DNA of 64,000 bases from a virus. Location of the stretch: positions 168,534 to 232,533 of IMG/VR virus record IMGVR_UViG_3300010389_000001; one strand, 5' to 3'. The translations under genes were made by a program, and so were the position numbers. The notes beneath the pieces were generated by a model. That model did not search any database, was not told the DNA's origin, and saw only the letters and a list, made by a program, of their open reading frames with translations. Below are positions 9,883-64,000 of this stretch, one piece after another. Each line of letters begins with the position of its first letter. The stretch's first letter is position 1.

Positions 9883-9885
9883 AGG

Positions 9886-10248: not shown

Positions 10249-10265
10249 AGTAATCAGGGCTTGAA

Positions 10266-11072
10266 ATGATAGACGAACAAAATCTGCCGGGAACAGCGCT
10301 CAACGGCGATCACATTGTTTATTCAAGCTTTTTTGCTGATAATTTCGTAGTACAGCAGAGCGCAATAGTTCATCCAAAGGCGCTACTCATCGACGGTCTG
10401 AGAAAGATATTCCAAAATGACTCTGTCTTTACCTATCGCGATGACGAATTCGGGTATCCGCTAACGCCCGATCTAACTGGCCTGGATGTCGACTCAGAGC
10501 TAACAACAAAGATCCTCATATCTGATACGTTCAGGTATGAGGTAAAGTTTTTTCCTGCGATCCTGGTAAAGTCAAATGGCGGATCTTATAAGCCGCTCTC
10601 TTTCAATCAAAATATGACTTATAAGTATAGGACCGATGTGATAGAGAATGAGTATGGTGCCAGAAAAGTTTTCAGCACTCCAACTCATAGGGTCTATGCG
10701 GGAAGATGGGAGATGAGATTTGATGTTCAGATCTACTCCGAAAGTCAGGCCGAGCTTCAAGAGTTGACAGACATAGTTTCTCTCGCCTTGCAGTACTCTC
10801 TTTGGAATGAGCTTAGAGCAAATGGCCTTTTCATAAGCAGTCTATCAATCGGCGGCGAATCTGCCGAGCCATATGCTAATGATTATGTTTATAACAACAC
10901 AATATCATTGACGACATTATCCGAATGGAGAGTCGAAATTCCAATAGAAAATATTGTTGAAAAAATAGCATTTACACTAGAGCCAACCTGGACTCCAATA
11001 CCGGGCGTAAAAACGAATGGCGACTCATTATCGAGAAGGTTTAGTGAAATAGTTGATTTGACCGAAATTTAA
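10266..11072 (+). CDS. Putative tail terminator or tail-completion protein
   Basis: The product has 268 residues. The first ~60 are helical and polar. The second half has an alternating strand pattern with RWEMRFDVQIYSES (about 149-162), followed by a helix carrying leucines (ELQELTDIVSLALQYSL) and further strands. A strand that reports a distance measure followed by a helix resembles tail-terminator folds, which cap the tail tube and join it to the neck. Its place directly upstream of the sheath gene agrees with this. I did not see a diagnostic motif, so this is a structural guess supported by synteny. The upstream ribosome binding site is weak. Confidence 0.4.
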   Translation: MIDEQNLPGTALNGDHIVYSSFFADNFVVQQSAIVHPKALLIDGLRKIFQNDSVFTYRDDEFGYPLTPDLTGLDVDSELTTKILISDTFRYEVKFFPAILVKSNGGSYKPLSFNQNMTYKYRTDVIENEYGARKVFSTPTHRVYAGRWEMRFDVQIYSESQAELQELTDIVSLALQYSLWNELRANGLFISSLSIGGESAEPYANDYVYNNTISLTTLSEWRVEIPIENIVEKIAFTLEPTWTPIPGVKTNGDSLSRRFSEIVDLTEI

Positions 11073-11106
11073 AATGAAACTACTAATAATAAACAATTTG
11101 ATGACA

Positions 11107-11112
11107 TATAAT
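11107..11112 (+). promoter_or_regulatory. Candidate -10 element (TATAAT) upstream of the sheath gene
   Basis: A perfect TATAAT stands in the 58-base gap before the sheath gene, with its end 18 bases from the ATG. No convincing -35 hexamer is present at 16-19 bases upstream, so it would be a -10-only type of promoter such as phage late promoters use. GGAGG at 11119-11123 is the strong ribosome binding site of the sheath gene. In AT-rich DNA such hexamers arise by chance, so support is modest. Confidence 0.35.
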
Positions 11113-11130
11113 ATATGCGGAGGATTTTAA

Positions 11131-14100
11131 ATGGCTAACATACCTGGAGTATCAGGATTTATACAGCCCGGAGCTTTTGCCAGAGATAGAGTTATCTCCA
11201 GGGGCGTGTCTATTCCTGGTGGAATTAGAATAGTTTGTATTATGGGTGAAGGCCTTAGAGAAGAGACCATCATTGAGTCAGCCGCTGGCTTGGGTCAGGA
11301 TGGAAGCGCTGATTGCAGCCCTACCGGCTCCGCTGATGGAAGGTTCTTTAGACTCCAGAATTGGCCGGTTGTAAGCGGCAGAACAGAGCTTAGGCTAAAT
11401 GGAACTCTTCTTTTTGGAAAAGAGGAGGAGATCGATGCCTCTGGTTTAGCTTCTCCGTTTGACTTTAGACTTGATCCAGAGACTGGCTGCATAGAGCTTA
11501 GAGGAGCTTCTATAGGCGACCAGGATGGAAAGGGCTTCTCTGCTTCCTCTTCAAATATCGGAACAGGAATTATCGTTGAGAATGATGACTGTGATCCGCT
11601 TGTTACACTCGATATCTTGGATGACTCCGCGCCAAGTGAGAGATGGACAATCAAGTGCGTATCTGTAGTCAGAGATTCTAACGGCGACCCCATTCCTGGC
11701 CTGTCAACTTTCACGGCAACGGGCTCTGTCTCCGGCCAGATCTACGACGACTCAGGCGCTCCAATAACATTCACGAGCGGTTACTTCACTAGTAACGCTG
11801 GTGCGGTATCTGGAAATGTATCAGAGTGCGATGACGGCTTTACGGTCGCCTATGGTGACATCTCAGGCTCAGCCTTCCCACAGGGCCTCGTCAAGATTAG
11901 AGAGGGCGATACCTCTCTTGATACATCAAATACATTTATTGTCCCTGGAGCAGATCTTGTTTCACAGGGTCAGGCTCTTCCTGGCGATTTCCTTTGTCTC
12001 GATGGCTATGCGGGTCATGAGATCGAGTCAATTGACTATGACGGCAGCGACACCACTATCACGGTTATAAGCGACAGCCTTGGTCCTGCAGATCCTGCAT
12101 GGGGTGAGGAGCCTGACGACGCTCTCGATTGGACGATTAAGGCTACAAACATCTTAATCGATGACGACTCAGTAGCTCATGATGAGATTACTGGCGAGCC
12201 TGCATCAGAGGGAAGCTTCTCTTCCGGCGATATCGGCAAGACGGTTCTAATTTGCCCCGGCGGAGCTTTCGGCGGTGGCAGATTTGTTATAACGGATGTA
12301 ACTTCAACAAGAAGAGTTCGCTTAGTATCACTAGAGGATGATAGCGTATCATTTGAAGACCTAGAGGGTCTGGGCGCTACCGGCCTTGGTGCTACTGGCC
12401 TTACATTCCATCTGCTTCAGAACAACGGCCTGCTTCTTCTTGGAATTCAAGAGGGCGGAACAGCCTTTGAGGTTGGCGATAAGTTCTTTGTTGATGTAAG
12501 CTCAAGAGCATTAGCTCAGGGCGACAATCTGGTTGCCAAGTATATCTACGAGTTGGACCTAAATGATCCTCAGTTCTTTACTGAGGCAAACGATCTATTC
12601 CTAAAGCACGGACTTGTATCAGAGGAGAACACACTATCCCTGGGTGCTCAGCTGGCGCTTGAGAACGGAGCGCCTGGCGTGCTAGCAGTACAGTGTAAGC
12701 CGGCCGTTCCAAGAAGAACGTCCGTAACCCTCCTAGAAGAAAGAGATTCTCTCGGAAATGGTGGATTCTCTGCATGTTATGATGCCGGCACTGAGTCAGC
12801 AGATGCATGTGAGGTCGATGATCTCAGATTCGTTATCCCGAGACCAACGGAGGGCCTTAGAAACGGCCGTCCCGATCCGGATTCCAGAGTCAACATTTTT
12901 GTTGTAAGAGATGGAGCAGAAACTCAGGTATTCCCTAACAAGGTTGCTTTCTATAACTCCCAGCTTGAGACAGATATCCAGCAGGGTCAGTGGATTGCAA
13001 GCTCTGACAATGCATTCTCTTACACAATTGTAAATTCAGAGACAGATATTCTTGCGAGCGGCGATAACGGAACACTCGATGTCGAGTCTGGCAGAGAATA
13101 CTTTACAACTCCAGAGATTGATTTCGACGGAGCAAATGTCGGCGACGTAATTGTCATAACGAGCATGGAAGATGCCTCTGGAACAGTATACACTTCAGTC
13201 GAAGAAATATCTGAGCAGCTATTCGGAGTAGCTCTCCTAGTGCCTTCAGTCGAGCTTCTGATTGATTCAGTTCAGGATGACTCATTGGTTTACGTTTCAG
13301 CAGAGAATGGCGAAACGCTAAATCTATTAAGCTCTTACTCAGACATCCAGTTCTTTGTAAAGGACCCTGCAAATACCAACGCAGACGATGCCTCACTCCT
13401 TCTGCACCGCGACCTAGTATCCAGCGGAGTAATCAGAGAGGGTGATGGAATCAGAATCTCCTATGTAGATGAGAACGATGCAGACTTCTTCGATACAAAT
13501 TGGTTTGAGGCACTTGAAGCACTTGAGGCTTCAGAGGCACAGATTGTTGTACCGCTTCCGAACCAGGCTATTTCATCAATCTTTAGAGCTACTGTAAACC
13601 ACTGTGAAAACATGAGTTCTATTGTAAATAGAAAGGAAAGAGTTGCATTTATTGGAGCCCAGAGAGGAGTTACTCCGGCCGCATTGATTGGAACTGAAGA
13701 AGTTGCTGTTGAAGATATCGGTATAATTGAGGGAATTCAGGGAGATGATCCGGAAGAGGTTCTCGCAGGAAATACCGAAGACCTAGTCAACTTTAAGTTA
13801 AGCGATAATTACACCAGCAACAGATGCGTCTATCTCTACCCAGATGAGATCGTAAGAAATGTAAATGGAACAAATGTTTCTCTGCATGGATTCTACGCAG
13901 CTGCAGCTGCCGCAGGATATCTTTCTGCAAGACAGAATGTTGCAATACCTCTGACGAACAAGGTTCTTTCTGGATTCTCACTAACCAGAGATAAGATCTT
14001 TAGACCGATTATACAGAATCAGCTTGGCGCCGTTGGAGCTACCCTGCTTCAGCCTGTAGCGGGCGGCGGAAGAGTTCTCGCAGGAAGAACTACCAGCCAG

Positions 14101-14429: not shown

Positions 14430-14462
14430 CCCCCCGGTACAATAGTGCCAGGGGGTTTTTTT
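14430..14462 (+). terminator. Rho-independent terminator after the sheath gene
   Basis: A run of Cs (14430-14435) pairs with GGGGG (14451-14455), with A14450 bulged. An inner stem GGTAC (14436-14440) pairs with GTGCC (14445-14449), with one G-T wobble and a four-base AATA loop. Seven Ts follow (14456-14462). This is a classic intrinsic terminator. Its right arm and T-tract overlap the ribosome binding site and start codon of the next gene. Confidence 0.85.
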
Positions 14463-16206
14463 GTTTTACGCAAAATGTTACGAATGCAATTCCAAGATGG
14501 AATATGCAAGAAAAAACGCTGCAGCTAGAGCTGAAAAAAACAAGATAGTATGCAAGACCTGTAAGAAAAGAAAAAAGGAAGCAAGAGAGAGGGCTTGCCC
14601 ATCTTGTAGTTGCCCTATAATATACAAGACATATGCCGGCTTTAAAAAGGGCGAGGAAAGTGATGCGCTATGCCCTTCTTGTGCAAAGCTTACACAATAT
14701 GAAGCTAGGCATTCAATTAAATGCTCAGAGTGTTCGGGGACACACTTTGTAAAGAGAGAAGAAACTTTAAAGAAAATGAGCAAAATGAGTCAGCCTTTTA
14801 TCTGCGGAAGCTGCAAGAAAAAGGCCAGACTAAGCATTGTTTACTCTAGAGATTGCGTAACTTGCGGTAAAAGCATAACTTATAAGAACAAATATAATTA
14901 TAATGCATCAATTAAAAGAAGCAAAAAAGCAAGGTGCGCTTCCTGCGCTCGCACGAATGGCTTCGTACTTCCCATGGAAAGGCCATGTCCAAAATGTAAT
15001 AAGATTATTCATTATAAAACAAAAGATAGCTGCGCGAGAGCCAATAAGCATGACTCGTTCTGCAAGTCCTGCGCACTGTCCGGAAGAATGCCTTCCGATC
15101 GAGCAATTGAGGCTGCGAGAAAAGCAAGGATCGGCAGAGTTGCCTCTCCTGAGGAGCTTAAAAGAAAGGAGGCAACTCTTCTTGAGAAATATGGGGCAAA
15201 AAGCTACCTTGGAACTGACGCTCACAGAAGGATGATGGTTGATTCTGGAGCGTGGAAAGACTATGACGGAAAAACAATAAAGCAAATAGCTAATGAAAAT
15301 GGTCTTCCAGAAAGCGTTCATTCTTCTCTATACAAATGGGTTGCAAGCTCTGATGAAATAAGCTATGATGATATAGCAGAATATTGCAGCAGTTATGAGA
15401 AGAAAATAAGCAACCTAGAAAATCTGGCGTCATTAGCCCTTGGCATCGATCATTTTAATAAAAAAATAAGTGAAGAATTGCCCTATAGGCCAGACTTTAA
15501 GATAAGTGATAAAATATTTTTAAATGTCGATGGCCTTTACTGGCATTCGGAACTTCACTCCGATAGGAAATATCATTTTGATATGAGGAAGAGTTATGAG
15601 GAAGCTGGCCTTAGGATAATTCAGTTCAGAGAAGACGAAGTTAATAAAAAAATGCATATTATCAAATCTATGATAGATAATGCTAGCGGACTTATTAAGA
15701 GTAAGATAGGCGCCAGAAAGTGTAAGATCGCCAAGCCTACGACCGATGAGGCAGAGTCTTTTCTGAGAGAGAACCACATCAAGGGCTACATTACATCGAG
15801 GCATTTGGGCTTATATTATAATGATCAGCTTGTTTCGCTAATGTCGTATAAGCTAAGAAAATCATATGTAAAAATAGACAGATTCTGCTCTAAGGCCGGC
15901 TGGTCTGTGCAGGGAGGGTTCTCTAGATTATTCAAAGAGGTTGAGAGGCAAAATGATCAAGATCTGCCGATTCATTATTGGGTTGATCTCAGATATGGCA
16001 CTGGAGACTTTCTTTTAAGCCAAGGCTTTAAACTTGAAAAAGAAACCCTTGGATGGGAATGGACCGACTTTAAAAAGACTCATAATAGGCTTAAGTGCAG
16101 GGCAAATATGGATGATAGATGCCTCTCTCAGTCGGAGCATGCAAAAGAGCTGGGATTATTTAAAATATATGATGCAGGCCAAAGACTTTACATCAAAAAT
16201 AAATAA
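14461..16206 (+). CDS. Free-standing homing endonuclease (zinc-ribbon array plus Vsr-like nuclease)
   Basis: The product has 581 residues. Five tandem four-cysteine zinc ribbons occupy residues 6-204: C6/C9/C31/C34, 46/49/71/74, 88/91/115/118, 132/135/159/162 and 176/179/201/204, presumably for DNA binding. A nuclease domain of the Vsr-like/EDxHD type follows (about 330-395): PDF at 344-346, DGLYWHSE with D357 and H362, H372, and E391/E393. A C-terminal domain (about 425-570) carries HYWVDLRYGTGDF and is common in phage endonucleases of this kind. The gene sits between sheath and tube genes that are normally adjacent, as expected for an intruding homing gene. The TTG start is the only codon before C6 and follows an in-frame stop at 14443. 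Confidence 0.8.
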   Translation: MFYAKCYECNSKMEYARKNAAARAEKNKIVCKTCKKRKKEARERACPSCSCPIIYKTYAGFKKGEESDALCPSCAKLTQYEARHSIKCSECSGTHFVKREETLKKMSKMSQPFICGSCKKKARLSIVYSRDCVTCGKSITYKNKYNYNASIKRSKKARCASCARTNGFVLPMERPCPKCNKIIHYKTKDSCARANKHDSFCKSCALSGRMPSDRAIEAARKARIGRVASPEELKRKEATLLEKYGAKSYLGTDAHRRMMVDSGAWKDYDGKTIKQIANENGLPESVHSSLYKWVASSDEISYDDIAEYCSSYEKKISNLENLASLALGIDHFNKKISEELPYRPDFKISDKIFLNVDGLYWHSELHSDRKYHFDMRKSYEEAGLRIIQFREDEVNKKMHIIKSMIDNASGLIKSKIGARKCKIAKPTTDEAESFLRENHIKGYITSRHLGLYYNDQLVSLMSYKLRKSYVKIDRFCSKAGWSVQGGFSRLFKEVERQNDQDLPIHYWVDLRYGTGDFLLSQGFKLEKETLGWEWTDFKKTHNRLKCRANMDDRCLSQSEHAKELGLFKIYDAGQRLYIKNK

Positions 16207-51603: not shown

Positions 51604-51654
51604 TCTCTATTAATAATAAAAGCTTTATCGAGAATAAAAGATTAGGAGCAATTG

Positions 51655-54600
51655 ATGTCAAAGAACAGTAGGGAAAATCTGCCTAGGGTTAATTTTTTTG
51701 ACGGACAAAAGGTTACTGAGTCAGATCTTGACACCGAGCAGATTCATCATAGAAATTTGGCTTCAAATATCATCTTGGACTTTCACCAAAATGGTGTAGT
51801 CAGGGATAGCATTTTTGAGAGCAGAGTTCTTTTTGACACGGCATCTCCTGGTGATTTTTCCGCTGAACCAAATGAATCAGAGGTAAAAATCGGTGCTGGC
51901 AAGTTCGACGGTTCTGCAATTTATTTTGATCGCCAGCCGAGCGATACAACCTATGGAAATAGACTTGAGGTAACGGCATCAAACCTTAGCGTAGGAGGAA
52001 GGCTTAAGGCTAAGGTGCTTATTCTCGGATTGAGGTATAGCTCAACCAAGACTCAGGGGGAGCTTGTAACGGAGTTGATTGAGTTTGATTCAAACGGCAC
52101 CAGAATAACTAACAACTACTACACTAGAGTAATCTCTGTCTTTTTCAATAACTTCTCTGGAGGAACAGGCAAGAGCGAGTACGCCGCTATGGCAGAAAGC
52201 GTCCAGACGAATGCAGCCGATGGAAAAATTGTTTTTAGGGAGTCCGAGCCGCTAAGAGTATTTCCAAAGACAGATACCTTCTCTCAGGTTGAATCGCCAA
52301 ACTACGGTCTTGCGTCATTTGTTACATCTTCAACTAGCAGATCAATTGAGGATGAAATAAGGACGGCTCTTGGTACAACATACAACTTTAACGAACTTTA
52401 TTTTGAGCTAGAAGCTTCCAGCAACTTTTTGTTCGAGCCTGATGCAGATCAAACCATCCAGTACGGCCAGAAGTTTCTATCTAAGACAAACAATCTTCAA
52501 AGAATTGATCTACTCTTTTACGTTCAAAGAGACGATTCTGCGCCAGTCGGAAGCGAGTACGATTTCTCCGGTGAGATCGTTGTGTCGGTTCACAAGCTGC
52601 TTGATAACATATCCTGCATAACTGATCCCAACCCCGAGAATCTACTGGACTTTGATCCAAATCCATCCCCGCTAATAGAGGTTGCTTATTCTCAAGAGGA
52701 TTTTGCTGAAATTGGCGTAAAGCTAGACGAAAATCCGCAGATTGTTAGTATCGATCTATCAACTACGCTGATTGCAGATCCAAACATAGAGCCGTCCCTG
52801 GAAGAGGATAAGTTCTATGCCGTACTTGTATCAAGAAGGGGAAATAACAGCCGTGGAACACTCGGAATTCCCGCAGGATATTATAAGCCCTCTAGAAAGA
52901 CCGATAATGGCCAAGATTTAAATCCGCAAGAAAGATTTGGAAGACAAGACTATAGACTTATAGAATACGATCCAACTAACTCATCTTATGTTGACTATCC
53001 AGATTTATCTATGTGGATTGTTGTCCACTCTGATTCCATAGAAATAACTGATGGGCAAGCTTATACGACTGACGGTTTCCCAGTATCAGTACCAAAGACG
53101 GTAGAGTACGTTGGTTCGACCAGAATACCATTCTTTATAAGAAATATTCCCTTAGCCTCTGTTGCAGAGGGAGAGAAGAATTATGTAGTGCTTTACCGTG
53201 AGGATGAATTTGTTGATCCGGCTACTCACCCAAGAACCGGCAACTTTGTTTACACGAATATTAAAGATGCGCCATCAATTGGCGTCCTAACTGAGTCAGA
53301 GCTTGATGAGCAGCTCGATGATTCTCCCCTCATTTTGAGCAGAGTTACTGACAAAAATGCAAGAGATGCACAAGATATAAGCGGAACTGCCGATAAGCCG
53401 GGACTTATAGGTCGAGATTATGCACTATTTATAGATCCGGGATCAGACGTTCTGATACAAAACTTGGTAGGAAGAATTTTCACTCCAGATCTAGATTGCG
53501 AATGCAATTCAAGATACCGAATTACAAGCGTTGAATGCAGCGCCCTCAGACTTGGCGATTTAAACAACGACGGAGAATACACATCCGATGATATCAGCAT
53601 TCTTTTGGATGTCGTTGGCAACACGCTTGGTGCGCAAACAACGGATCGCAGAATTCTGGGTGGAGAACTCGATATCGTAGAGTTTCTGCAATCAGATCTA
53701 AATAATGATGGTACAGTAGACGGCGAAGATATAGAGCTTCTAGAAGATGCGGTCGATGGATATGTAAACTTTGAGGCGGAAGAAGTTATCAAGGTTCTAA
53801 AGGTATCTTTAGAAAACATAACAGATGATAGCAACTTCCCAACTTTATTCAACTCTGCCGATGAAGTTTCTTCGAGCTTATCTGCAAGCACAGATCTTGG
53901 AACAAATACAATAAGCTTTACCGTAAGCAAAGAGCAAGAGGGTCTTGCAATAAGGGCTGGAGACAAAGTCATCGTTCCTGCCACTTCTGTTGACAGTGGT
54001 GAATATTTTGTTGCAACAAAGACCTTTGATGTAGACACCCTAGAGGTAATCCTGACAGTCAAAGATGCTGGCGGAGGAGAGCCCACCTTTGATGGGTCAT
54101 CCGGGTTTGACGTAGTGGTAGTTAGTGGGACTGCAGTAAACATGTTTGCAGATAATTTAAACCTGCTAAAAACTCCATATGCAGAGAAAAACTGGTCTAT
54201 ATCTTATTCCGGAGTTCTTCATCTAGAATCTCAGATAGAAGCTTGCGATCTCAGAAGATTTGTGGAGACAAACCTAATCGAAGAAGTGGCAGGATCATGT
54301 GTCTGCGAAACAGAAGAGTGTATTCAGCCGGATGCATGCAGCCCCATCCTCAGAAATCAAAAGATCCTTCCAAATGACCTCTACATCCCCAATGGCGAAA
54401 TCTATAGCGAGCCTGGCGTTCCCTATCATGGAGATATTGAGTATTCAACAATCTCTATAGCTATGCCGCCAGGAACGATTGAAGATTGTCAAATTGATCT
54501 TTACAATAACTTTATAAAATCCGATGCCGGTGGTTGCAAGACTGCCTCCGGCTATCCCGCTATGGTCTTTTCCGATGGTACCTACGTCGGCTGCGAAGAC

Positions 54601-56217
54601 TCGGGCGGAGAAACCGATCTAACAAAGGGTAGAGTAAAGATAACGCAATGTATAGCCAGCCTTCACGTCGATGCTCTCGTTGACGGCTACGCTGTTGATG
54701 GCTATGCCGATGAAGAAGCAAACAACTTAATTGATGAGATTATAAGCGAAACGTTTGTTGATTATAGCTATCCTACATCAGTTGGCTTCTCTGATTGGAC
54801 GGTGACGGACCCATCTGGAGGAACTTATTTCGTAATAACAACAGATCCTTTCGCAAATACTCCAGCTACCTTCCTGCTGGAAACCACCAGCGCACCAGAA
54901 AGAACTGCAATAATCGATTATCCTGCCGCTCTCGATCCAATTTCCGGCGACTTTGTAATAGATTTTGTAGCATCAAGATCAACGTGGTCAGACTCTGGCT
55001 TAATCGCTGGAAAGGTCAGCTTTTTCGGTGAGGTAGAAATTGTTAATGGTGACGGAACAACCTGTAACCTAAAGATTGGCTGGAGAGTCTCTGCCGGAGA
55101 TTCAACCGAGATGTTCTACTCCGGAACTCTATCTGATACTTCCACGGGAACCGTTCTAAACGACTTTGATAGAGCCATTGTCGCCAAAGATGACCTTGGG
55201 GACGAGATTACATTTAGATTAAGAAGAACAAGCGAAGCTGTTTTCGGAATGTACTATGACGAGACACTTCTAGACGAGGACAGCATTGATGGAAAATTCA
55301 GCAAAATTGGTTCGACGCCAAGCTTCTCACCGGGAGCTGGGGATGCATCCTTGGCCTTTAAGCTATCCCAGCAGCTTACTCCAAATGCCGGCCAGGTATT
55401 CTTTGCAAAGATTCATAGTACAGCGGTCAGGTATAACCTGACGAGCCTTGATAATACTGGTAATAACTTTGTTGAAATCTCCAGAGACTCATCAACAAAT
55501 ATCATTAACAGAGCAACTGTTGGGTTCCCAATTTCTCTAAACCGGAGAACAAACATTGTATCTGCAAGCATGAAGTTTACATTATCTGATGCTTATCCAG
55601 GAGGGGATACTTTTAACCTTATACCCTTAGAAGTTATAAACGCAGATAATCTTGGAACTATAATCGATTATCCTCAAACAATCAACGAGTCACTGATATC
55701 TTCATTTACACCCGGCCCACTTGCCGCTGGGTCTGACATTACAGTTGATGTTACCGGTATGGCTGTATATTTCCTTTCCAGAACCGGGCATCTGCCAGGC
55801 TTCTCTAAGGCGATCGTAGTAGAGCCATCTTCTGGTGCAAACTCAGCTCTTTATATAGATGGAGATATAAGCTTTGACATTGCTTATGAGGATATTACGT
55901 CGGGAGTAATCTTTAAGATTGGAGCTAGCATAGATCCTTCGACTGGGATTGTATCGTTTAGCACAAGAAATATTCTATATGATGCATTAAATAAGGCTAA
56001 TAGAACCGTACTTTCTTTTGGCATTCACCTAAAGAAGTCTGGATTTAGGAATGATGATATTTACATTGGCATTAAGGACCTTGAGAAGCTCGGCATAGGC
56101 ACCTGCAAAGATGAGACTGCTATTGCCGATGAAGATCTTTGCTTCTTTATCACCGGAGATACTGCCACGGGCACCTTTGTTGAGGGCCCGTTCCCCTGTA
56201 ACTTCCATCTCCCATAG
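51655..56217 (+). CDS. Large tail protein with dockerin-like EF-hand pair
   Basis: The product has 1520 residues. The start ATG at 51655 is chosen over the in-frame TTG three bases upstream because AGGAG at 51644-51648 sits six bases before it. The N-terminus (PRVNFFDGQKVTESDLD) is typical of phage tail or baseplate-associated proteins. Residues 634-698 contain two calcium-loop motifs, GDLNNDGEYTSDDISILLD and SDLNNDGTVDGEDIELLED, as in type I dockerin repeats. A cysteine-rich stretch (CVCETEECIQPDACSP) lies near 882-898. The rest is beta-rich, with a jelly-roll-like C-terminal half. It ends the structural region, so it is likely a fibre or adhesin, but no direct family match is recognised. 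Confidence 0.6.
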   Translation: MSKNSRENLPRVNFFDGQKVTESDLDTEQIHHRNLASNIILDFHQNGVVRDSIFESRVLFDTASPGDFSAEPNESEVKIGAGKFDGSAIYFDRQPSDTTYGNRLEVTASNLSVGGRLKAKVLILGLRYSSTKTQGELVTELIEFDSNGTRITNNYYTRVISVFFNNFSGGTGKSEYAAMAESVQTNAADGKIVFRESEPLRVFPKTDTFSQVESPNYGLASFVTSSTSRSIEDEIRTALGTTYNFNELYFELEASSNFLFEPDADQTIQYGQKFLSKTNNLQRIDLLFYVQRDDSAPVGSEYDFSGEIVVSVHKLLDNISCITDPNPENLLDFDPNPSPLIEVAYSQEDFAEIGVKLDENPQIVSIDLSTTLIADPNIEPSLEEDKFYAVLVSRRGNNSRGTLGIPAGYYKPSRKTDNGQDLNPQERFGRQDYRLIEYDPTNSSYVDYPDLSMWIVVHSDSIEITDGQAYTTDGFPVSVPKTVEYVGSTRIPFFIRNIPLASVAEGEKNYVVLYREDEFVDPATHPRTGNFVYTNIKDAPSIGVLTESELDEQLDDSPLILSRVTDKNARDAQDISGTADKPGLIGRDYALFIDPGSDVLIQNLVGRIFTPDLDCECNSRYRITSVECSALRLGDLNNDGEYTSDDISILLDVVGNTLGAQTTDRRILGGELDIVEFLQSDLNNDGTVDGEDIELLEDAVDGYVNFEAEEVIKVLKVSLENITDDSNFPTLFNSADEVSSSLSASTDLGTNTISFTVSKEQEGLAIRAGDKVIVPATSVDSGEYFVATKTFDVDTLEVILTVKDAGGGEPTFDGSSGFDVVVVSGTAVNMFADNLNLLKTPYAEKNWSISYSGVLHLESQIEACDLRRFVETNLIEEVAGSCVCETEECIQPDACSPILRNQKILPNDLYIPNGEIYSEPGVPYHGDIEYSTISIAMPPGTIEDCQIDLYNNFIKSDAGGCKTASGYPAMVFSDGTYVGCEDSGGETDLTKGRVKITQCIASLHVDALVDGYAVDGYADEEANNLIDEIISETFVDYSYPTSVGFSDWTVTDPSGGTYFVITTDPFANTPATFLLETTSAPERTAIIDYPAALDPISGDFVIDFVASRSTWSDSGLIAGKVSFFGEVEIVNGDGTTCNLKIGWRVSAGDSTEMFYSGTLSDTSTGTVLNDFDRAIVAKDDLGDEITFRLRRTSEAVFGMYYDETLLDEDSIDGKFSKIGSTPSFSPGAGDASLAFKLSQQLTPNAGQVFFAKIHSTAVRYNLTSLDNTGNNFVEISRDSSTNIINRATVGFPISLNRRTNIVSASMKFTLSDAYPGGDTFNLIPLEVINADNLGTIIDYPQTINESLISSFTPGPLAAGSDITVDVTGMAVYFLSRTGHLPGFSKAIVVEPSSGANSALYIDGDISFDIAYEDITSGVIFKIGASIDPSTGIVSFSTRNILYDALNKANRTVLSFGIHLKKSGFRNDDIYIGIKDLEKLGIGTCKDETAIADEDLCFFITGDTATGTFVEGPFPCNFHLP
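53554..53748 (+). other. Dockerin-like pair of calcium-binding loops (protein domain)
   Basis: Within the 1520-residue protein, two segments with the D-x-N-x-D-G pattern followed by an acidic residue and a hydrophobic helix lie 46 residues apart (D635 and D681). This duplicated F-hand layout is that of type I dockerins, which bind cohesin modules. The linker here is longer than the usual dockerin spacing. It may instead simply be two calcium-binding EF-hand-like loops. Confidence 0.55.
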
Positions 56218-56241: not shown

Positions 56242-56598
56242 ATGAATAGACTTAATAGATTAGCGCGCATATTAAAAATTGCTCAGATGTCTGATGCTGG
56301 TTCCGAAGATCATAAGATCAGACAAACCGAGGAGCGCGCAGGCATGACTCTAGAAGAATTCGAGAATAAGGTAGCTCGACTAATTTTGAAAGAAAGAATT
56401 AGATCAGAAGAGACAGAAGAGATAGGCATCGAGATGGATATGAGTGAACTAGAAATTGATGGCCCTACAATGGTCAGGGCGCTCTTAGACGGTGCCGATA
56501 AAGTGGCTGATCCTGCGTTCTTCCCATACACATTCTTGAGCGAAAGAAAGACTCCTGAAGATTATTTTAATTTTCTGAAGCAGAATGGCGTTATCTAA
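56242..56598 (+). CDS. Small acidic protein of unknown function
   Basis: The product has 118 residues. Basic and helical at the N-terminus (MNRLNRLARILKIA), it becomes acidic in the middle (ERIRSEETEEIGIEMDMSE, about 51-69) and ends in a short hydrophobic-aromatic region (PAFFPYTF at about 91-98, later DYFNFLKQNGVI). It is soluble with no signal. It separates the adhesin-like giant genes from the glycosyltransferase block and may belong to either. The ribosome binding site is weak (GAG about ten bases upstream). I do not recognise it. Confidence 0.5.
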   Translation: MNRLNRLARILKIAQMSDAGSEDHKIRQTEERAGMTLEEFENKVARLILKERIRSEETEEIGIEMDMSELEIDGPTMVRALLDGADKVADPAFFPYTFLSERKTPEDYFNFLKQNGVI

Positions 56599-56640: not shown

Positions 56641-57723
56641 ATGAAAAATGTAAATATTCGCTGCGAGTCTATGCTTGGAACAAGCCATAGCTGGGCTGTT
56701 ACTATGCGGAATCTTTTGGGCAGTCTACATGACCTTGGCTGCGACCTTCATCTGAAAAGCATCAATGGAACCTCACTTTTGCCGGCAAAATTGAGTCGGC
56801 TTATCCGAGATGTAAGTGATCCTGATATAGATATCGCTTATACGCTTCCGAGAAATTTCGAGCATAGGTTTAAGAAGAATGCAAAGCTTAAGTTGGCCAT
56901 CTATAACTATGAAACAAGTATCATGCCCCAGGTCTGGAGAGATTCTATAAAGCATATTGATTATGCCCTGCCCTCTTCACACTTTTCTAAAAAAGTTTTT
57001 GTAGACTCAGGTTGGCCAGAAGATAAATGCATAGTAGTTCCTCACGGAATTAATTTATCTGACTTTAGTAACAAGAAAAAAATAAAGCTAACTAATGATA
57101 GTAGATTTAGATTTTTAAACGTTTCTATACCTCATTATAGAAAAAATTTAGATCGTCTTATTGATGCTTATTACACTGCTTTCACAAATAAAGATGACGT
57201 ATGCCTGGTGCTAAAGACAAGCTTAAAGGCGCCAAAAAATTATTTTGAGTGTGACGTAAAAAAGCAGCTGATGATTGTTCAAAATAAGCATAGAAAGAGA
57301 ACCGATCTGCCCATGATCGAAATTGTTCAAAAAAGGTACGAAAGCATAGTGCCCCTATATAACGCTTGTGATGCCCTTGTGAGCGCCACATCCGCCGAAG
57401 GCTTCGGGCTACCCCTACTAGAGGGTCTGGCGGCAGGAATGATCGTTGTAGCCCCTCGCTTCTCTGGTCATCTTGATTTTCTTACGGACAAGAACTCTGT
57501 TCTTTACGATTATAAGATCGTTGATGCAGAAAAGCGGTATCAATATTGGCGGCCAACGCCGGGGGCTACAACGAGCCTGCCCGATATAAAGGCTCTCGCA
57601 GAGTCGATGCACAAAGTATATCGCAATCACGCTTCTCTCAAGGCTAAGTTTAGAAAAAATGCTCTAGAGACTGCAAAAAGATTTACTTGGGAGAATGCCG
57701 CAAAAAGCATTTTGGAAATATAA
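56641..57723 (+). CDS. GT4-family glycosyltransferase
   Basis: The product has 360 residues with GT-B architecture. An N-terminal half binds acceptor. The C-terminal half carries the nucleotide-sugar site, including IVVPHGINLSDF at about residue 137, a RFLNVSIPHYRKNLDRLI segment at about 158-175, and the E-x7-E motif at E253 and E261 within SAEGFGLPLLEGLA. Members transfer a sugar from an activated donor, keeping the anomeric configuration. Acceptor and donor cannot be predicted. It opens a run of consecutive glycosyltransferase genes and overlaps the next by one base (TAATG). No ribosome binding site is obvious upstream. Confidence 0.85.
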   Translation: MKNVNIRCESMLGTSHSWAVTMRNLLGSLHDLGCDLHLKSINGTSLLPAKLSRLIRDVSDPDIDIAYTLPRNFEHRFKKNAKLKLAIYNYETSIMPQVWRDSIKHIDYALPSSHFSKKVFVDSGWPEDKCIVVPHGINLSDFSNKKKIKLTNDSRFRFLNVSIPHYRKNLDRLIDAYYTAFTNKDDVCLVLKTSLKAPKNYFECDVKKQLMIVQNKHRKRTDLPMIEIVQKRYESIVPLYNACDALVSATSAEGFGLPLLEGLAAGMIVVAPRFSGHLDFLTDKNSVLYDYKIVDAEKRYQYWRPTPGATTSLPDIKALAESMHKVYRNHASLKAKFRKNALETAKRFTWENAAKSILEI

Positions 57724-59213
57724 TGATTGTTCTAGATTTAAAAAATAAAAAAGACTGGAATATGAATGGCGTAAACTGTGAATCTAGCGTAAAAATGAAT
57801 AATAAAGGTTATTTTTATTCATTTATTGATAAGCCTGGTGAATACGAGTTTCGTATATTATCAAAAAATATTTCAGGTAATGGTCTTTTTTATTTAAGGG
57901 TAGTTAGCGAAAAAGATAAAATATTGTTCAATAAAAAGATAAAGTTTACATCAAAAAGCTGGAATGAATCAATCTTTAAAATAAGCTTAAAAGACTTTGG
58001 CAAAAAAGCAAAAGTCCTGATAACAAGAGAGCTTGACGGAATTGGCAGGATAGAAATCGGAAGACTTACCGTTAAGATTTCGGAAGAAGTTCTTCCGAAG
58101 GAATCTAAAAGACAAAAATCTATAGCGGACAATAAGCTTATAAGATGCGAGTCTGCAGTTCGCGCTGCAGTCATTATTCCATATGCAATATACGGCGGAG
58201 CAGAAGTTTATTTAAGAAATTTATTCTGCCACAGACCTGCTGGACTAGAGGTAGATTTTTTATTTTTAAAACCAAATAAGTTATCAGATTATCTAAAAGA
58301 ATATGACTGCTTTAATCTTGGAAGCTTAAGCAAATTGAAGCATCAGCTGATAAAAGAAAATTATGATAAAATTATTTACTACAACAGCAAAAGTGTATAT
58401 TCTTTTATTTTAAATTTAAAGCAGAATAATCTTATTTGCTCCGATTTAATAGAAATATATCATAGCAATTTTAAGTGGTCTGATTCATTATCTTCGCTAA
58501 ACTCAAGGAGCGGCATATCCAAGATAATTAGAGTTGCTGATAATCTGTGCAATGATATTTCCGGAGACTTTAGCCTAAAAACAATACCTGTAAGCATAGA
58601 TGTTGAAAAATATAAGCCGAAAGACTCCCCGATCAAAGAGCTTATTGGGGAAGGAGAAGGGGGCATGCTCTTTGGGATGGTTGCTCGCCTGTCTCCCGAA
58701 AAGAATATATCGTATGCTATCGATTTATTTAAGCGATTGAGCAATCATAGGCTGATTGTAATCGGAGATGGCCCGTTGCGCAATAGTCTCAAAGAAAAAA
58801 TAGTCAAAGAAAAAATTGATAATGTAAAGCTTATTGGTTACAAAGAAAATGTTTATGAATATTATAATTTATTAGATGTTTTTTTGCTTACCTCAAAGTT
58901 TGAAGGAACGCCAATATCTATAATTGAAGCTATGTCGTATAATCTTCCTATATTTACAACGGATGTCGGAGAAATAAGAGCTTCTCTATCTTATGTAGAA
59001 GGAATAGGTTATCTAACCGGGGAGTTGGATGAGGATGCGAAAATGATAAGTGATTTTAAATTTGATGAATCTATAAATTGTAGAGAGTGGGTCCTAAAAA
59101 ATAATAATTCACTTATTAATTCGAGCATGTTCTTTGGCGAGATAATTGGAAATTCTCTAACTTACTCAGAGTTAGATTTATCTTTGCCAATTTTAAGCGG
59201 AGCTTATTTTTAA
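57723..59213 (+). CDS. Two-domain GT4-family glycosyltransferase with N-terminal beta domain
   Basis: The product has 496 residues from the ATG at 57723. I reject the upstream in-frame TTG at 57687, which lies inside the previous gene. Residues 1-130 form a beta-sandwich-like domain (short strands with YFYSFIDKPGEYEFRIL) not seen in the neighbours, perhaps binding the acceptor. The glycosyltransferase part starts at about residue 145 (AVIIPYAIYGGAEVYLRNLF), with GMVARLSPEKNISYAI at about 318-333 and the E-x7-E motif at E394/E402 in SKFEGTPISIIEAM. The base composition looks more AT-rich than the sheath gene, by eye. Start and stop overlap both neighbours. Confidence 0.85.
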   Translation: MIVLDLKNKKDWNMNGVNCESSVKMNNKGYFYSFIDKPGEYEFRILSKNISGNGLFYLRVVSEKDKILFNKKIKFTSKSWNESIFKISLKDFGKKAKVLITRELDGIGRIEIGRLTVKISEEVLPKESKRQKSIADNKLIRCESAVRAAVIIPYAIYGGAEVYLRNLFCHRPAGLEVDFLFLKPNKLSDYLKEYDCFNLGSLSKLKHQLIKENYDKIIYYNSKSVYSFILNLKQNNLICSDLIEIYHSNFKWSDSLSSLNSRSGISKIIRVADNLCNDISGDFSLKTIPVSIDVEKYKPKDSPIKELIGEGEGGMLFGMVARLSPEKNISYAIDLFKRLSNHRLIVIGDGPLRNSLKEKIVKEKIDNVKLIGYKENVYEYYNLLDVFLLTSKFEGTPISIIEAMSYNLPIFTTDVGEIRASLSYVEGIGYLTGELDEDAKMISDFKFDESINCREWVLKNNNSLINSSMFFGEIIGNSLTYSELDLSLPILSGAYF

Positions 59214-60310
59214 TGACCCAGAGATCAATAAGATTATTCGGTAATCCCCAGGATTTTACAGGATATGGAAACGCCACTCAGGCTATATCCATGGCCCTTG
59301 ATTTATCCGGGATACCGACAAAGTATGTCTTCTCTGGGCCAAATAAGCATTTCTCAAAAAAGCTTCGTCAACATAACTGTAAACCTGATGTTGATTTATA
59401 CATACAAACTCCCCCATTTTCTAGGCACAGGTCTCTGAATTATAGAATTGGGTATTTTTACTGGGAAACGGATAAACTACCGAACTTGTGGGCTAAAGAC
59501 ATAAAGACAAGTCTGGATGAGATATGGGCTCCATGCCAACTTGTAAAAGATGTTTGCTTAAAGGCCGGCTTCAAGGGTCCAATTAAAATAATTCCTACGC
59601 CAGCTCTGAGCCCCACGTCAAGCTCTAAAATACAAATTCCATCTAAATTTAAAAATTTAGTTTTAGATGAAAGCGTATTTAAATTTTATTCAATTTTTCA
59701 ATGGAATGAGCGAAAAGGATATCATAAGTTAATAAAAAGTTATTATGAAGAATTTTCATCTAAAGATAATGTGATCTTGATCCTAAAGGTTAATCCAATT
59801 AACCATAAGCTTCACGGAATGCAAAAAATAAAAGATGATATTTTAAAAATAAGATCGCTAGTTAAGAGGTCAAAAAAAGATTTACCAAAAATCTTCTTGT
59901 CCACAGATCATATCGATCGCCATCTTTTAGACGCTCTACATCATACTTGTGATGCGTTCGTTCTCCCTCACCATGGAGAGGGGTGGGGTATGCCAATACA
60001 TGATGCAATCAACCATAATAATTTTATAATTACAACGAAGTATGGAGGAGTAACTGAATGGCTAAATAATGAGAACTCCTTTATAATAAAGCATTCTATG
60101 ACAGCCGCAAAGTCCATGAATTGGAATCCATGGTATGAGCCAAGTCAAAGGTGGGCAAATCCAAGTGCCAATAGCTTAAAGAGGCAGATGAGAAGCTGCT
60201 ATGAAGACAGAAATAACTTTGATTATAAGAAGGAAAATCTAAATCAAATTACTAATTTATTTACTATAGATAAGTGCGCTCTTAATATTAAGAAAGCATT
60301 AGAAGCGTAG
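59213..60310 (+). CDS. GT4-family glycosyltransferase, E-x7-D variant
   Basis: The product has 365 residues. The N-terminal domain has the GNPQDFTGYGNATQAIS glycine loop that binds the donor phosphate (about 10-26), then a YFYWETDKLP segment (about 82-91). The C-terminal domain has FQWNERKGYHKLI (about 163-175) and HHGEGWGMPIHDAI (about 253-266). In that motif the second acidic residue is D264 instead of the usual E, eight residues after E256. This variation is seen in some families and is probably still functional. The start overlaps the upstream stop by one base. Confidence 0.85.
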   Translation: MTQRSIRLFGNPQDFTGYGNATQAISMALDLSGIPTKYVFSGPNKHFSKKLRQHNCKPDVDLYIQTPPFSRHRSLNYRIGYFYWETDKLPNLWAKDIKTSLDEIWAPCQLVKDVCLKAGFKGPIKIIPTPALSPTSSSKIQIPSKFKNLVLDESVFKFYSIFQWNERKGYHKLIKSYYEEFSSKDNVILILKVNPINHKLHGMQKIKDDILKIRSLVKRSKKDLPKIFLSTDHIDRHLLDALHHTCDAFVLPHHGEGWGMPIHDAINHNNFIITTKYGGVTEWLNNENSFIIKHSMTAAKSMNWNPWYEPSQRWANPSANSLKRQMRSCYEDRNNFDYKKENLNQITNLFTIDKCALNIKKALEA

Positions 60311-60316
60311 TTCGTT

Positions 60317-61252
60317 ATGTCAAAAAGATATATTATAGCAGATTGGCTAGTGCATGGCGGTCATCAATATGAGTTTTTTAAAACTGGGCATGACTTCTTC
60401 TGCGCTAACCCGGATGGCTCCGCGCCTGATCCAAAGTCATTGGGCCGACCGATAAATGAAAATGTGAAGTATGTAAAACAAAGCGCTCTTCAGGAAAAGA
60501 GGGTTTCCATTATAATGGTAAGAAGCCCTATTAAGGCAGAAAAGTACAATCGCCTTAGAGGAAAGTACGCCTTTAATAAGCCTCCTGGTATTGCGGTAGT
60601 GCAGACAACAAATCCTTTTGTTCCACCAAGATGGGTGCGATGCGTTGTGTGGAACTCTGAGCATTGTATGAAGTTACATTCTAAAGCAATCGGTTGGGCA
60701 AAGCACTTCTATATTCCGCACGGCTTTGATCCGAATGAATTTAGCAACCTGGGGCTGCAGAGAAATGGCAAAATGCTCGGCGCAGGAAGCCTGTATAGGC
60801 AAAGAGACAATCTATTGGGTTATCGCGAATGGAGGTGGGTTGCAGATCGTCTAAAGGATCGCTGCGCCCTCATAGGGCACGGAAATGACGACCCAGAGTC
60901 AATAGGCAGCCACTCTCTCGATCGCTTGGTAAAGATATATAATGAGCATTCCGTATTTCTAAATACAACAAAACATAGTGCTATGCCGAGAACCAGAGCG
61001 GAGGCCATGATGTGCGGCATGCCGCTTGTTTCTACCGCAAATTATGGTATAGAAAAATATCTTATAAACGGAAAAAATTGTATTATAGCAAATGGCAAGC
61101 AGGATATGCTAGAGGGAGTGAAAAAGATATTGGACTCGCCTTCGATGCAGGAAGATTTTTCTTCGGCCTCAAGAGAAACTGCTTTAAAATACTTTCATAT
61201 AAATGAGTATCTTAATAGATGGAAACAAGTTTTTGAAGAGGCTTTAAAATGA
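60317..61252 (+). CDS. Glycosyltransferase, GT-B type
   Basis: The product has 311 residues and is shorter than its neighbours. The N-terminus has LVHGGHQYEFFKTG, a glycine-containing donor loop. A histidine-containing strand FYIPHGFDPNEF (about 130-141) aligns with the PHG-x-D motif of GT4 enzymes. The C-terminal motif is RTRAEAMMCGMPLVSTANYG (about 218-237); only the second of the two acidic residues of the family motif is obvious. The stop overlaps the next ATG (ATGA). Six bases separate it from the upstream gene, without a clear ribosome binding site. The acceptor is unknown. Confidence 0.75.
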   Translation: MSKRYIIADWLVHGGHQYEFFKTGHDFFCANPDGSAPDPKSLGRPINENVKYVKQSALQEKRVSIIMVRSPIKAEKYNRLRGKYAFNKPPGIAVVQTTNPFVPPRWVRCVVWNSEHCMKLHSKAIGWAKHFYIPHGFDPNEFSNLGLQRNGKMLGAGSLYRQRDNLLGYREWRWVADRLKDRCALIGHGNDDPESIGSHSLDRLVKIYNEHSVFLNTTKHSAMPRTRAEAMMCGMPLVSTANYGIEKYLINGKNCIIANGKQDMLEGVKKILDSPSMQEDFSSASRETALKYFHINEYLNRWKQVFEEALK

Positions 61253-62115
61253 AAAAAATACTGCTTTTAACTGACTCTTATAATTGGGCTACTTATTTTA
61301 GAGCAGTAAATCTTAAGCATAATTTAAAAAACTATGATTTTACAATTCTATCCTTCGAAGATAAGCACAAAGTAGATTTTAATGATTTTGATATTGTTTA
61401 CATAACAAATTGGCCAATATACGGATACGTTCGAGATAAAATTTCTAGCAGAAGAGGCTACAAGCTCGTTACCGGAGTATCAAGTCATATAGGCAGGAAA
61501 AGCGCGCGTGAAATGAGAACATTTTTTTCCTCTTTTGACGCTATAGGTCTTTCAAATAACTTTTTAATGAAAGAATTCGCTAGTGCAAAATTTAAAAAGC
61601 TTGTTTATACGCCATTTGGTGTAAATCATAATATCTTTAATAAAAAAACAAATCCGGCGGACTACAAACACGTATTTGGATGGGTTGGCAATAAAGATAG
61701 GCCGGTAAAGCGATATTCCGAAATAAAAGAAGCAATACAAAGCTTGGGCACAACATATGAGCTGAGAACCGTTGGAAGCTCTAACAATTTTTCCAGGGAA
61801 AAGATGGCAAAATTTTACAACTCTATAGGTACCCTTATTTGCTTCAGCGAATCAGAGGGCACTCCGAATCCAGTATTGGAGGCCGCCATGTGTGGGAGGG
61901 CCATAATTTCTACAAATGTAGGCAATGTTCCTCAGCTGATGTCTAAGGTAAGGGAGTTTACTCCAATAGACTCTAGAAAATCTCTTATAGATCAAATTTT
62001 TGAATATAAGAATAAGAAAGACCTTGCATCTTTCGGGTCAGATATAGAGGCGATTGCGAAAAGGGAGTGGACCTGGGAGAGGCAATCAAAAAGATTCGTA
62101 AAATTATTCGAGTAA
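61249..62115 (+). CDS. GT4-family glycosyltransferase, compact
   Basis: The product has 288 residues, small for the fold. N-terminal strands (KILLLTDSYNWATYFRA) are followed by a C-terminal donor-binding half with FGWVGNKDRPVKRYSEI (about 143-159) and the motif SESEGTPNPVLEAAMCG (about 200-216), where E203 and E211 are eight residues apart. The start overlaps the upstream stop as ATGA, and the next gene follows after three bases. The reduced size suggests a shortened N-terminal domain. It is a retaining GT-B enzyme by inference from the motif. Confidence 0.8.
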   Translation: MKKILLLTDSYNWATYFRAVNLKHNLKNYDFTILSFEDKHKVDFNDFDIVYITNWPIYGYVRDKISSRRGYKLVTGVSSHIGRKSAREMRTFFSSFDAIGLSNNFLMKEFASAKFKKLVYTPFGVNHNIFNKKTNPADYKHVFGWVGNKDRPVKRYSEIKEAIQSLGTTYELRTVGSSNNFSREKMAKFYNSIGTLICFSESEGTPNPVLEAAMCGRAIISTNVGNVPQLMSKVREFTPIDSRKSLIDQIFEYKNKKDLASFGSDIEAIAKREWTWERQSKRFVKLFE

Positions 62116-62118
62116 ATC

Positions 62119-63141
62119 ATGCAAAGAATTTTAATTACAAGTACTCAATACCCCTATTATGGCGGTGCGGCAACAAACGCATATGCTTTAATAAAGCATT
62201 TTAGAAAGCTAGGCATAAAAGTATGTGGTACATTTTTCGAAGAGAAAAGCGTAAATGCTGATCCAGACTCTATTGGAGGAGTATTTCTTGCCTCAAAGAA
62301 AGATGTGCAAAGTTGTAAAAAAAAGATAAATCAGTATCTAAAAGGAGAGCCCGATGTTGTGCTTTGCAAAAATTACGTTGCGCCAGTCTTGTCCAGGAAG
62401 ATTTATCCAAATTCAAAAATATTTTACTTAGCTTCTGGCTGTCCCCACATGATGGAGCTATCATCAAAAGATATATCTGCAATTAAATACTTAAAATCAT
62501 CTAGGTCTATAGAATTTGCTGCTGAAAAAAGCGCGATAAAATCTTCTGACTTTATTGTTCCAAATAGCGAAATTGGAAGAAGATTGCTGCAAAAACATTA
62601 TGGCAATTCAAAGAAAATTTTAAACTCATTCAATACATCGCTTGAAATAAATAGAAAGCCCAGATCCATTGAGTTTGATCGTAGAAATTATGACATAGGC
62701 TTTATATGCTCTAATTTTAATAGAACAGTAAAGAACTCAAGATTAGCTTTATCTATTTTTAGTAATTTTAAATCAAATAAAAAAATTGCCATAGGAAATA
62801 ACTCATCTGCTTTTAAATCAGTAGACAGAACTACAGTTATGAACTCTAAAGATAATGACTTTATCATAAGGACTCTTTCACAAACAAAATTGATTATCTG
62901 CCCATCTTATTACGATGCATCACCAAATATCGTGCGAGAAGCTATTTTATGCGGATGCAATGTTTTGGTTTCAAAAAACTGCGGATGGAGTGAGGCTTAC
63001 CCAAGAACAAGCGTGTGTGAAGATATCTATGATAAAAAAGAGTGGGTCGCTAAGGCGAAATTTTTAGTTAAACGAAATGTAAAATATGACTACAAATATA
63101 ATGCAGATATAGTCAGATATCTTGAGGGTGCATTAAAATGA
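62119..63141 (+). CDS. Glycosyltransferase, GT-B type
   Basis: The product has 340 residues. A glycine-rich loop near the start (TQYPYYGGAATNAYALIK, about 9-26) and a C-terminal region CPSYYDASPNIVREAILCG (about 257-275) mark the GT-B fold. The first acidic residue of the usual E-x7-E pair appears to be an aspartate, in DASPNIVREA, with E nearby. The last strand carries VLVSKNCGWSEAYPR. The stop overlaps the start of the next gene as ATGA. This is the sixth gene of the block. Confidence 0.75.
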   Translation: MQRILITSTQYPYYGGAATNAYALIKHFRKLGIKVCGTFFEEKSVNADPDSIGGVFLASKKDVQSCKKKINQYLKGEPDVVLCKNYVAPVLSRKIYPNSKIFYLASGCPHMMELSSKDISAIKYLKSSRSIEFAAEKSAIKSSDFIVPNSEIGRRLLQKHYGNSKKILNSFNTSLEINRKPRSIEFDRRNYDIGFICSNFNRTVKNSRLALSIFSNFKSNKKIAIGNNSSAFKSVDRTTVMNSKDNDFIIRTLSQTKLIICPSYYDASPNIVREAILCGCNVLVSKNCGWSEAYPRTSVCEDIYDKKEWVAKAKFLVKRNVKYDYKYNADIVRYLEGALK

Positions 63142-63952
63142 AAAGAGTTTTATTTATAGTTGATAAGCCGGGCTGGGCCTATGATGATGCAGCTCAAAAT
63201 TGGAAAAGACTACTTTGCAAAGAATATAAAATAGATATTCTACATCTGGCTGAATATGATGGCGTTCGCCCAGATCATAGATTTTACGGACTAATTAAAG
63301 AATATCAAGATTGTGCAATAAATAATCAATCTGCAGATTTAAAAGATTTAATATCAGAAAAAAATTTGTTTTTATGCAAAGGAATTAAGGCAGAGCCAGT
63401 TTTTGATCATAATAATTATGATATAATTTATTTATTTTATCACAGAGCACTATGTGATTCAAGGCTTCTTGCTACACCAATCCCACTTGAAAAAGTTGTA
63501 ATTGCTATAAATAATGAAAAGTGGACAGATCTTGGCGCAAAAAAAGAATATGATACATATATGAAGGGAGTGGGCGGCATTTCTGTATGCAACTCTTTTG
63601 TTGAAAAATCTTTCAGTGGATTAAACCCAAATATTTTTAGAGTCTCTCAATCTATTAACAAAGATGTATTTTTCAAAATAAAAGATAATGCCAAAAGTAA
63701 TCGTTTTATAGCCGGCTGGTCTGGCAATTATAAAAATCCTTTAAAAAATTTTGAACTAATAAAAGAAGCTATTTCAAATACTAAAGCTAGATTTACCTAT
63801 GCGAATAACCTTTCCAGAAAAGAGCTTAACGTATGGTATAATAACATAAACTGCGTGGTATGCGCTAGTGTGTCTGAGGGCGGCCCCCTTATGCTCTTGG
63901 AAGCCGGAGCAGTGGGGCTTCCTGTGATAACCTCTAAAGTTGGGTTGGCTAG
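63138..63952 (+). CDS. Partial glycosyltransferase, 3' end lost in adapter
   Basis: This reading frame starts with ATG overlapping the previous stop (ATGA). About 271 residues of real sequence remain. It begins MKRVLFIVDKPGWAYDDA and contains a GWSGNYKNPLKNFELIK strand (about 194-210) and an E-x7-E motif at E247/E255 within VSEGGPLMLLEAGAVG. The frame does not stop before base 63953, where non-biological adapter begins; its translation ends in CLLYTSPSPRD, an adapter peptide. True length is therefore unknown. It would be the seventh glycosyltransferase. Confidence 0.75.
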
Positions 63953-64000
63953 CTGTCTCTTATACACATCTCCGAGCCCACGAGACGTAGAGGAATCTCG
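63953..64000 (+). other. Illumina Nextera adapter sequence (artefact)
   Basis: The last 48 bases begin with the transposase mosaic end CTGTCTCTTATACACATCT, followed by CCGAGCCCACGAGAC, then GTAGAGGA (matching the Nextera i7 index read N712 as I remember it) and ATCTCG, the start of the flow-cell sequence. This is not phage DNA. The genuine sequence ends at 63952. Confidence 0.97.

Follow-up and report, generated by a model that had tools for sequence, protein, structure and literature searches.

We propose that a lineage of jumbo myoviruses carries a phage-encoded locus for the cytoplasmic assembly of a glycan, with a conserved core and an exchangeable tip, probably placed on a virion protein; judging from sequence, we have moderate confidence in this reading. 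The locus lies in a window of 64,000 nucleotides (the whole stretch of DNA analysed), which corresponds to bases 168534-232533 of the 232,533-base virus record IMGVR_UViG_3300010389_000001. Since the window runs to the last base of the record, its end is also the end of the contig. At positions 56641-63952, seven open reading frames follow each other head to tail, all on the + strand, and all are GT-B (GT4-type) glycosyltransferases according to Pfam and PHROG profiles.

Four of these genes form the core of the array: GT1 (56641..57723), GT2 (57723..59213), GT3 (59213..60310) and GT4 (60317..61252). The other three are accessory: GT5 (61249..62115), GT6 (62119..63141) and GT7 (63138..63952), the last being truncated by the contig end. 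The junctions from GT1 to GT7 measure -1, -1, +6, -4, +3 and -4 bases. Gene calls are longest ORFs; for GT2, alignment of the orthologues makes ATG 57723 the most likely start, while the longest ORF would begin at TTG 57687. A Pfam GT-B model (PF00534, PF13692 or PF13524) was matched by all seven ORFs, with best E-values from 1.7e-24 (GT2) to 1.8e-5 (GT6), and six of the seven passed the curated Pfam cut-off, GT6 falling just under it (24.8 vs 26.4 bits). All seven also matched phrog_2170, annotated as glycosyltransferase. In the C-terminal domain, the E-x7-E motif is canonical in four of the seven (GT1, GT2, GT5 and GT7) and in the GT8 fragment described below; GT3 has E-x7-D, and GT4, whose first motif residue is degenerate, and GT6 have D-x7-E. 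Thus the six complete and one partial GT-B genes in a row, separated by one- to six-base overlaps or gaps and mostly bearing E-x7-E or a variant, that the sequence-only reading had described were all confirmed. Throughout the 232.5-kb contig, all eight PF00534 matches fall in the array or at the contig's opposite end.

The best solved relative of the GT1 profile is the chlorovirus protein B736L (3oy2), a distant one (E 8.6e-7). The fold was checked for GT2 only, and the predicted structure is a GT-B double Rossmann fold (pLDDT 80.8) that matches BshA with an E-value of 6.6e-16; the nearest solved folds include BshA, HepE and MshA. GT2 additionally possesses an N-terminal all-beta domain (approximately residues 1-121), which is conserved among the orthologues and received no name from fold searches. 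In the predicted model, this domain could bind the acceptor or the glycan.

The conserved partner upstream of GT1 is ADH (51652..56217, + strand), a gene for a 1,521-aa adhesin-like virion protein. The term adhesin-like was coined in the sequence-only reading, and the virion role is assigned from position and conservation, not from a profile match. That reading had the array follow adhesin-like genes; the upstream adhesin-like gene stands, but an ORF of 118 aa (56242..56598, + strand), with no function assigned and not conserved at that place, intervenes before GT1. The ADH family comprises 13 sequences, the others being 42-82% identical to our ADH, with no relative in the PDB and no match among cultured phages. 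Dockerin_1 was matched in 7 of the 13 members with weak E-values; such dockerin-like calcium-binding repeats are unusual in a phage virion protein. The same window contains tail sheath, baseplate wedge, Baseplate_J and very large virion-type genes, and their synteny recurs in other phage contigs, in keeping with the earlier placement of the array in a phage structural region. Host DNA or a chimeric window, which would have undone that placement, is ruled out, because independent contigs share the synteny of sheath, baseplate, fibre, adhesin and glycosyltransferase genes. Scans for promoters and terminators across the region remained at chance level. An N-terminal motif resembling MNRLxxLxxxLKIA is common to several unrelated small proteins (window position 56242, L009:1386 and L071:4979-5335), and is perhaps a targeting or packaging signal.

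A search with the sheath returned 57 related viral contigs, and a search with GT1 returned 18, with ADH directly upstream in every one of them (18/18). The order ADH, GT1, GT2, GT3, GT4 is found in all 14 contigs that reach far enough (13 relatives and our own, at least two pairs of which seem to be the same phage); every record comes from a metagenome and may be incomplete. In G023, a 1,099-aa gene is inserted between GT3 and GT4. GT1-GT4 have reciprocal-best orthologues in all seven phages compared, with identities of 51-72% for GT1, 31-52% for GT2, 41-68% for GT3 and 36-60% for GT4, and in a tree of 50 glycosyltransferases each core position forms its own clade. The array is therefore older than the divergence of these phages and not the result of a recent tandem expansion; with its order kept in the relatives, it is not a chance arrangement either. 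GT1 and GT3 are distant paralogues, as are GT5 and GT7. The accessory genes GT5-GT7 are all present, and in our order, in G016 and L088, and some of them occur in L093, L095 and L098. A scan of genome contigs for bacterial relatives of GT1 confirmed none, hence GT1 offers no clue to the host. Cultured phages possess only distant glycosyltransferases, mostly those of Streptomyces phages, and the two phages that were inspected have one or two such genes beside ribonucleotide reductase and endolysin genes, with no arrays.

Both ends of our contig carry sequencing artefacts. Positions 63953..64000 (+ strand) are a Nextera i7-side adapter with its index, not phage DNA, and the first 44 bases of the contig (L009:1-44) are the i5-side Nextera adapter, untrimmed and with index bases; the terminal ORFs at both ends finish in an artefactual peptide (CLLYTSPSPRD...). 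As GT7 ends at 63952, its apparent tail CLLYTSPSPRDVEES is an artefact. The start adapter is followed by the last 135 residues (C-terminal) of an eighth glycosyltransferase, GT8. Four relatives possess a single GT8 orthologue each, in every case downstream of the array. The contig is thus probably a circular map broken inside the locus: the simplest reading of the sequence is that the genome is circular or permuted and that its assembly probably broke in the locus, leaving out the stretch from GT7 to GT8. This interval measures 8 kb in G016, where GT1-GT7 stand in the order seen here. The genes past GT8 differ between our contig and the relatives. We rejected the idea that GT7 and the fragment at the contig start are halves of one gene: both cover the same motif region with different sequences, and they belong to separate clades. 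Eight of the 18 contigs with GT1 end less than 9 kb downstream of it and none within 9 kb upstream (sign test ~0.004, in reality somewhat weaker since some contigs are near duplicates), and our own contig likewise ends within that distance downstream. Such a pattern would be expected of a hypervariable cassette at which assemblies break. Elsewhere on the contig, within bases 4000-13000 (L009), the G+C content jumps from ~0.38 to 0.65 at ~4.05 kb, after a run of short intergenic repeats (ACTGCAAAGCTT, TGTCAAG); small early-type genes occupy the high-GC part, which is possibly a foreign segment or an assembly chimera.

Four relatives were read through to GT8, and behind the core their locus contains nucleotide-sugar synthesis genes, more glycosyltransferases and decoration genes, and then GT8. 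The cassette of G020 encodes NeuB, two cytidylyltransferases, a DAHP/Kdo8P-synthase-type enzyme, a DegT aminotransferase, an epimerase, an FkbM methyltransferase and a UDP-sugar dehydrogenase. In G014 we find a sulfotransferase, a sulfatase-family protein, nucleotidyltransferases, a GSCFA protein, a dehydrogenase and a dehydratase; in G001 a hexapeptide transferase, a GT2-family enzyme, a glutamine amidotransferase/Asn-synthase pair, DegT, an oxidoreductase and a sulfotransferase; and in G016 a pyruvyltransferase, a methyltransferase, a dehydrogenase, an epimerase and a GDP-mannose dehydratase. Dehydrogenase, epimerase and dehydratase are common to all four cassettes, and 89 of the 111 gene families in the locus are confined to one phage. 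Extending the contig in search of nucleotide-sugar synthesis genes, as had been suggested, was thus achieved via the relatives, whose orthologous arrays continue into such genes. Their presence, together with that of sugar-decorating genes, supports the earlier claim that the array implies a multi-sugar glycan, and the many sequential GT-B enzymes combined with donor synthesis and decoration enzymes argue for a branched or long one. Our own contig has no GDP-mannose-dehydratase/epimerase-type gene, so the sugar donors of this phage must be supplied either by the host or by genes on the unassembled piece.

Mobile elements were seen both in the window and in the cassettes. A homing-type HNH endonuclease gene (14461-16206) lies right behind the sheath gene, and a relative of it, 47% identical, adjoins GT8 in G020 (L077:12389-13966), indicating that homing-type elements move within the lineage. 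In G014, a LAGLIDADG domain interrupts a GDP-mannose dehydratase gene (L074:5723-7864). Right behind the last glycosyltransferase of the locus, the relatives encode a tubulin/TubZ-like protein (PF00091, PF22453), located in G016 at L078:709-2118 (- strand), with orthologues in G014 and G020, and in G001 in frame with a glycosyltransferase. This suggests a phage tubulin filament system. A TubZ-family search over the records gave no hits, not even for the domain already detected by hmmscan, so its silence carries no weight.

On which molecule would such a glycan be built? A virion protein is the acceptor that we favour, based on the fixed adjacency of the adhesin and on the failure to find genes for a lipid carrier, a flippase or a polymerase. 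Simple hydropathy gave no clear transmembrane segments in the sugar genes between GT1 and GT8. Four families representing initiation and export, PF02397 (Bac_transf), PF00953 (WecA-type), PF01943 (Wzx-type) and PF04932 (Wzy/WaaL-type), were absent from five records (two of them >330 kb, all possibly incomplete), with positive controls. These five records therefore did not yield the set of initiating phosphosugar transferase, flippase and polymerase or ligase that defines a Wzx/Wzy-type O-antigen or capsule pathway. With no clear membrane enzyme and the four families for initiation, flipping, polymerization and ligation missing, a soluble cytoplasmic acceptor is favoured. The sequence points to the adhesin adjacent to the array, or a fibre, as the most likely one, adjacency of genes being in itself no proof for the adhesin.

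The main rival, and a serious one, is that the array modifies an envelope glycan of the host (LPS core or surface polysaccharide) during infection, leading to superinfection exclusion or preventing re-adsorption of the progeny to debris. The enzymes of the LPS core are soluble and rely on carriers of the host. If the phage enzymes used host-made lipid-linked acceptors, a phage flippase or polymerase would be needless, and the missing membrane genes are compatible with a host acceptor as well, since LPS cores, too, are built by soluble GT-B enzymes that bring no carriers. The cassette enzymes resemble O-antigen and capsule enzymes, the predicted fold of GT2 is like that of LPS and small-molecule GT4 enzymes, and two reports propose this role for comparable clusters in pelagimyophages (PMC7029224) and jumbo cyanophages (PMC7824862). 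However, these published readings rest on no test themselves, and the host-surface explanation has to contend with an array that is linked to one virion adhesin gene in every contig, with a four-enzyme core conserved across phages despite an otherwise variable cassette, and with the lack of any gene of the searched initiating, flippase, polymerase and ligase families. On balance, we consider it the less likely of the two.

Much less probable still is the glycosylation of hypermodified bases in the phage DNA, which would block restriction. Several phages use glycosyltransferases in this way, as the moraphage report states (PMC12619734), and the sequence-only reading had flagged it as possible but unusual. 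Our results disfavour it: the thymidylate-synthase/hydroxymethylase family, expected in a T4-like system, had no member in the five records while its control search was positive, the array is located among tail genes, and a chain of at least seven glycosyltransferases with Neu/Kdo-type sugars, sulfation and pyruvylation exceeds known base modifications. A search for Tet/JBP oxygenases gave no match, with the control likewise silent. Equally improbable is a product with no relation to the virion, whether a glycan (free or secreted), a glycolipid or a small glycoconjugate, by which the host cell or its environment would be altered: enzymes with small or lipid acceptors are among the solved folds nearest to GT2, but no export or lipid-anchor genes were found in the locus, and the adhesin linkage would be left unexplained.

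For the glycosylation of a virion protein, we infer the following scheme. GT1-GT4 would be expressed alongside the late virion genes, and their presumed activity in the host cytoplasm would give a soluble acceptor made by the phage, most likely the neighbouring adhesin or a fibre protein, its conserved oligosaccharide core. Acting after the core enzymes in this putative order, the accessory glycosyltransferases (GT5-GT7 here, others elsewhere) would extend and decorate the core, in the relatives together with nucleotide-sugar synthases and sulfo-, acetyl-, methyl- and pyruvyl-transferases. The result would be a strain-specific glycan tip, exchanged between phages, and a virion with a variable sugar coat of its own making, which may aid attachment or shield the tail against binding or degradation. 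A broader picture, offered tentatively and by analogy, is that this uncultured jumbo-phage lineage may autonomously make a complex glycan, from activated sugars through assembly to sulfation, acetylation and pyruvylation, and mount it on its tail adhesin; the conserved core and exchangeable tips would then produce serotype-like variation of the virion, like that of chlorovirus capsid glycans. We regard this as plausible rather than probable. Sugar clusters of marine phages have mostly been read, without test, as modifiers of host O-antigens. Four glycosyltransferases locked to one virion adhesin gene in all relatives examined, with none of the searched lipid-carrier or export genes, make virion self-glycosylation a concrete and testable alternative. 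If it is true, phages can vary their own sugar coat much as bacteria vary their O-antigens.

Virion glycosylation in mycobacteriophages involves few glycosyltransferases, in contrast to the locus of seven to eleven with donor synthesis in our lineage. The glycans of these phages sit on subunits of the capsid and the tail tube (Freeman et al. 2023, as cited in PMC12619734). Chlorovirus capsid glycosylation (PMC9614988) likewise relies on a virus-encoded sugar-nucleotide and glycosyltransferase pathway with several GT-B enzymes, and it has a conserved core glycan with variable decoration, as we propose here. Unlike our phage, chloroviruses are eukaryotic algal viruses with N-glycans on the capsid protein, and the acceptor of B736L is itself unsettled (PMC9614988). 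The moraphages are jumbo phages of 200-307 kb from aquatic metagenomes, for which variable genomic islands were noted (Perez-Hernandez et al. 2025, PMC12619734). As far as the available text of that report goes, they share with our lineage the jumbo size, the sheath and gp25/gp6 baseplate genes, and four core glycosyltransferase orthogroups, the last likeness being one of number; the array, the adhesin linkage and the sugar cassette are not described there. According to the same text, 27 of 28 moraphage genomes encode a family B DNA polymerase (VOG00275). The corresponding Pfam family (PF00136) had no match in seven records of our lineage, including those of 211, 232, 332 and 335 kb, where a very divergent polymerase could escape. 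This result speaks against moraphage membership, and our lineage, compared by description only, is probably not a moraphage one. The host recognition cluster of pelagimyophages and cyanomyophages is similarly hypervariable and lies beside tail-fibre genes, with glycosyltransferases and nucleotide-sugar genes, and it was attributed to modification of the host O-chain (PMC7029224). In the accessible part of that paper, GT8-family enzymes dominate, as opposed to GT-B (PF00534-type) enzymes in our array, and no fixed, ordered core of four glycosyltransferases behind one adhesin is described. The P-SSM2-type clusters of jumbo cyanophages also contain epimerase/dehydratases, nucleotidyltransferases and several glycosyltransferases, polymorphic among relatives; the accessible text describes them as O-antigen or capsule modification and mentions no syntenic adhesin-GT1-4 core (PMC7824862). 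From these texts, phage sugar clusters beside tail genes were thus already known in cyanophages and pelagimyophages (PMC7824862, PMC7029224), as was a jumbo lineage whose core genome includes four glycosyltransferase orthogroups (PMC12619734). What appears to be new is the combination of an adhesin-GT1-4 core that is fixed, a sugar cassette that is exchangeable, and export genes that went undetected.
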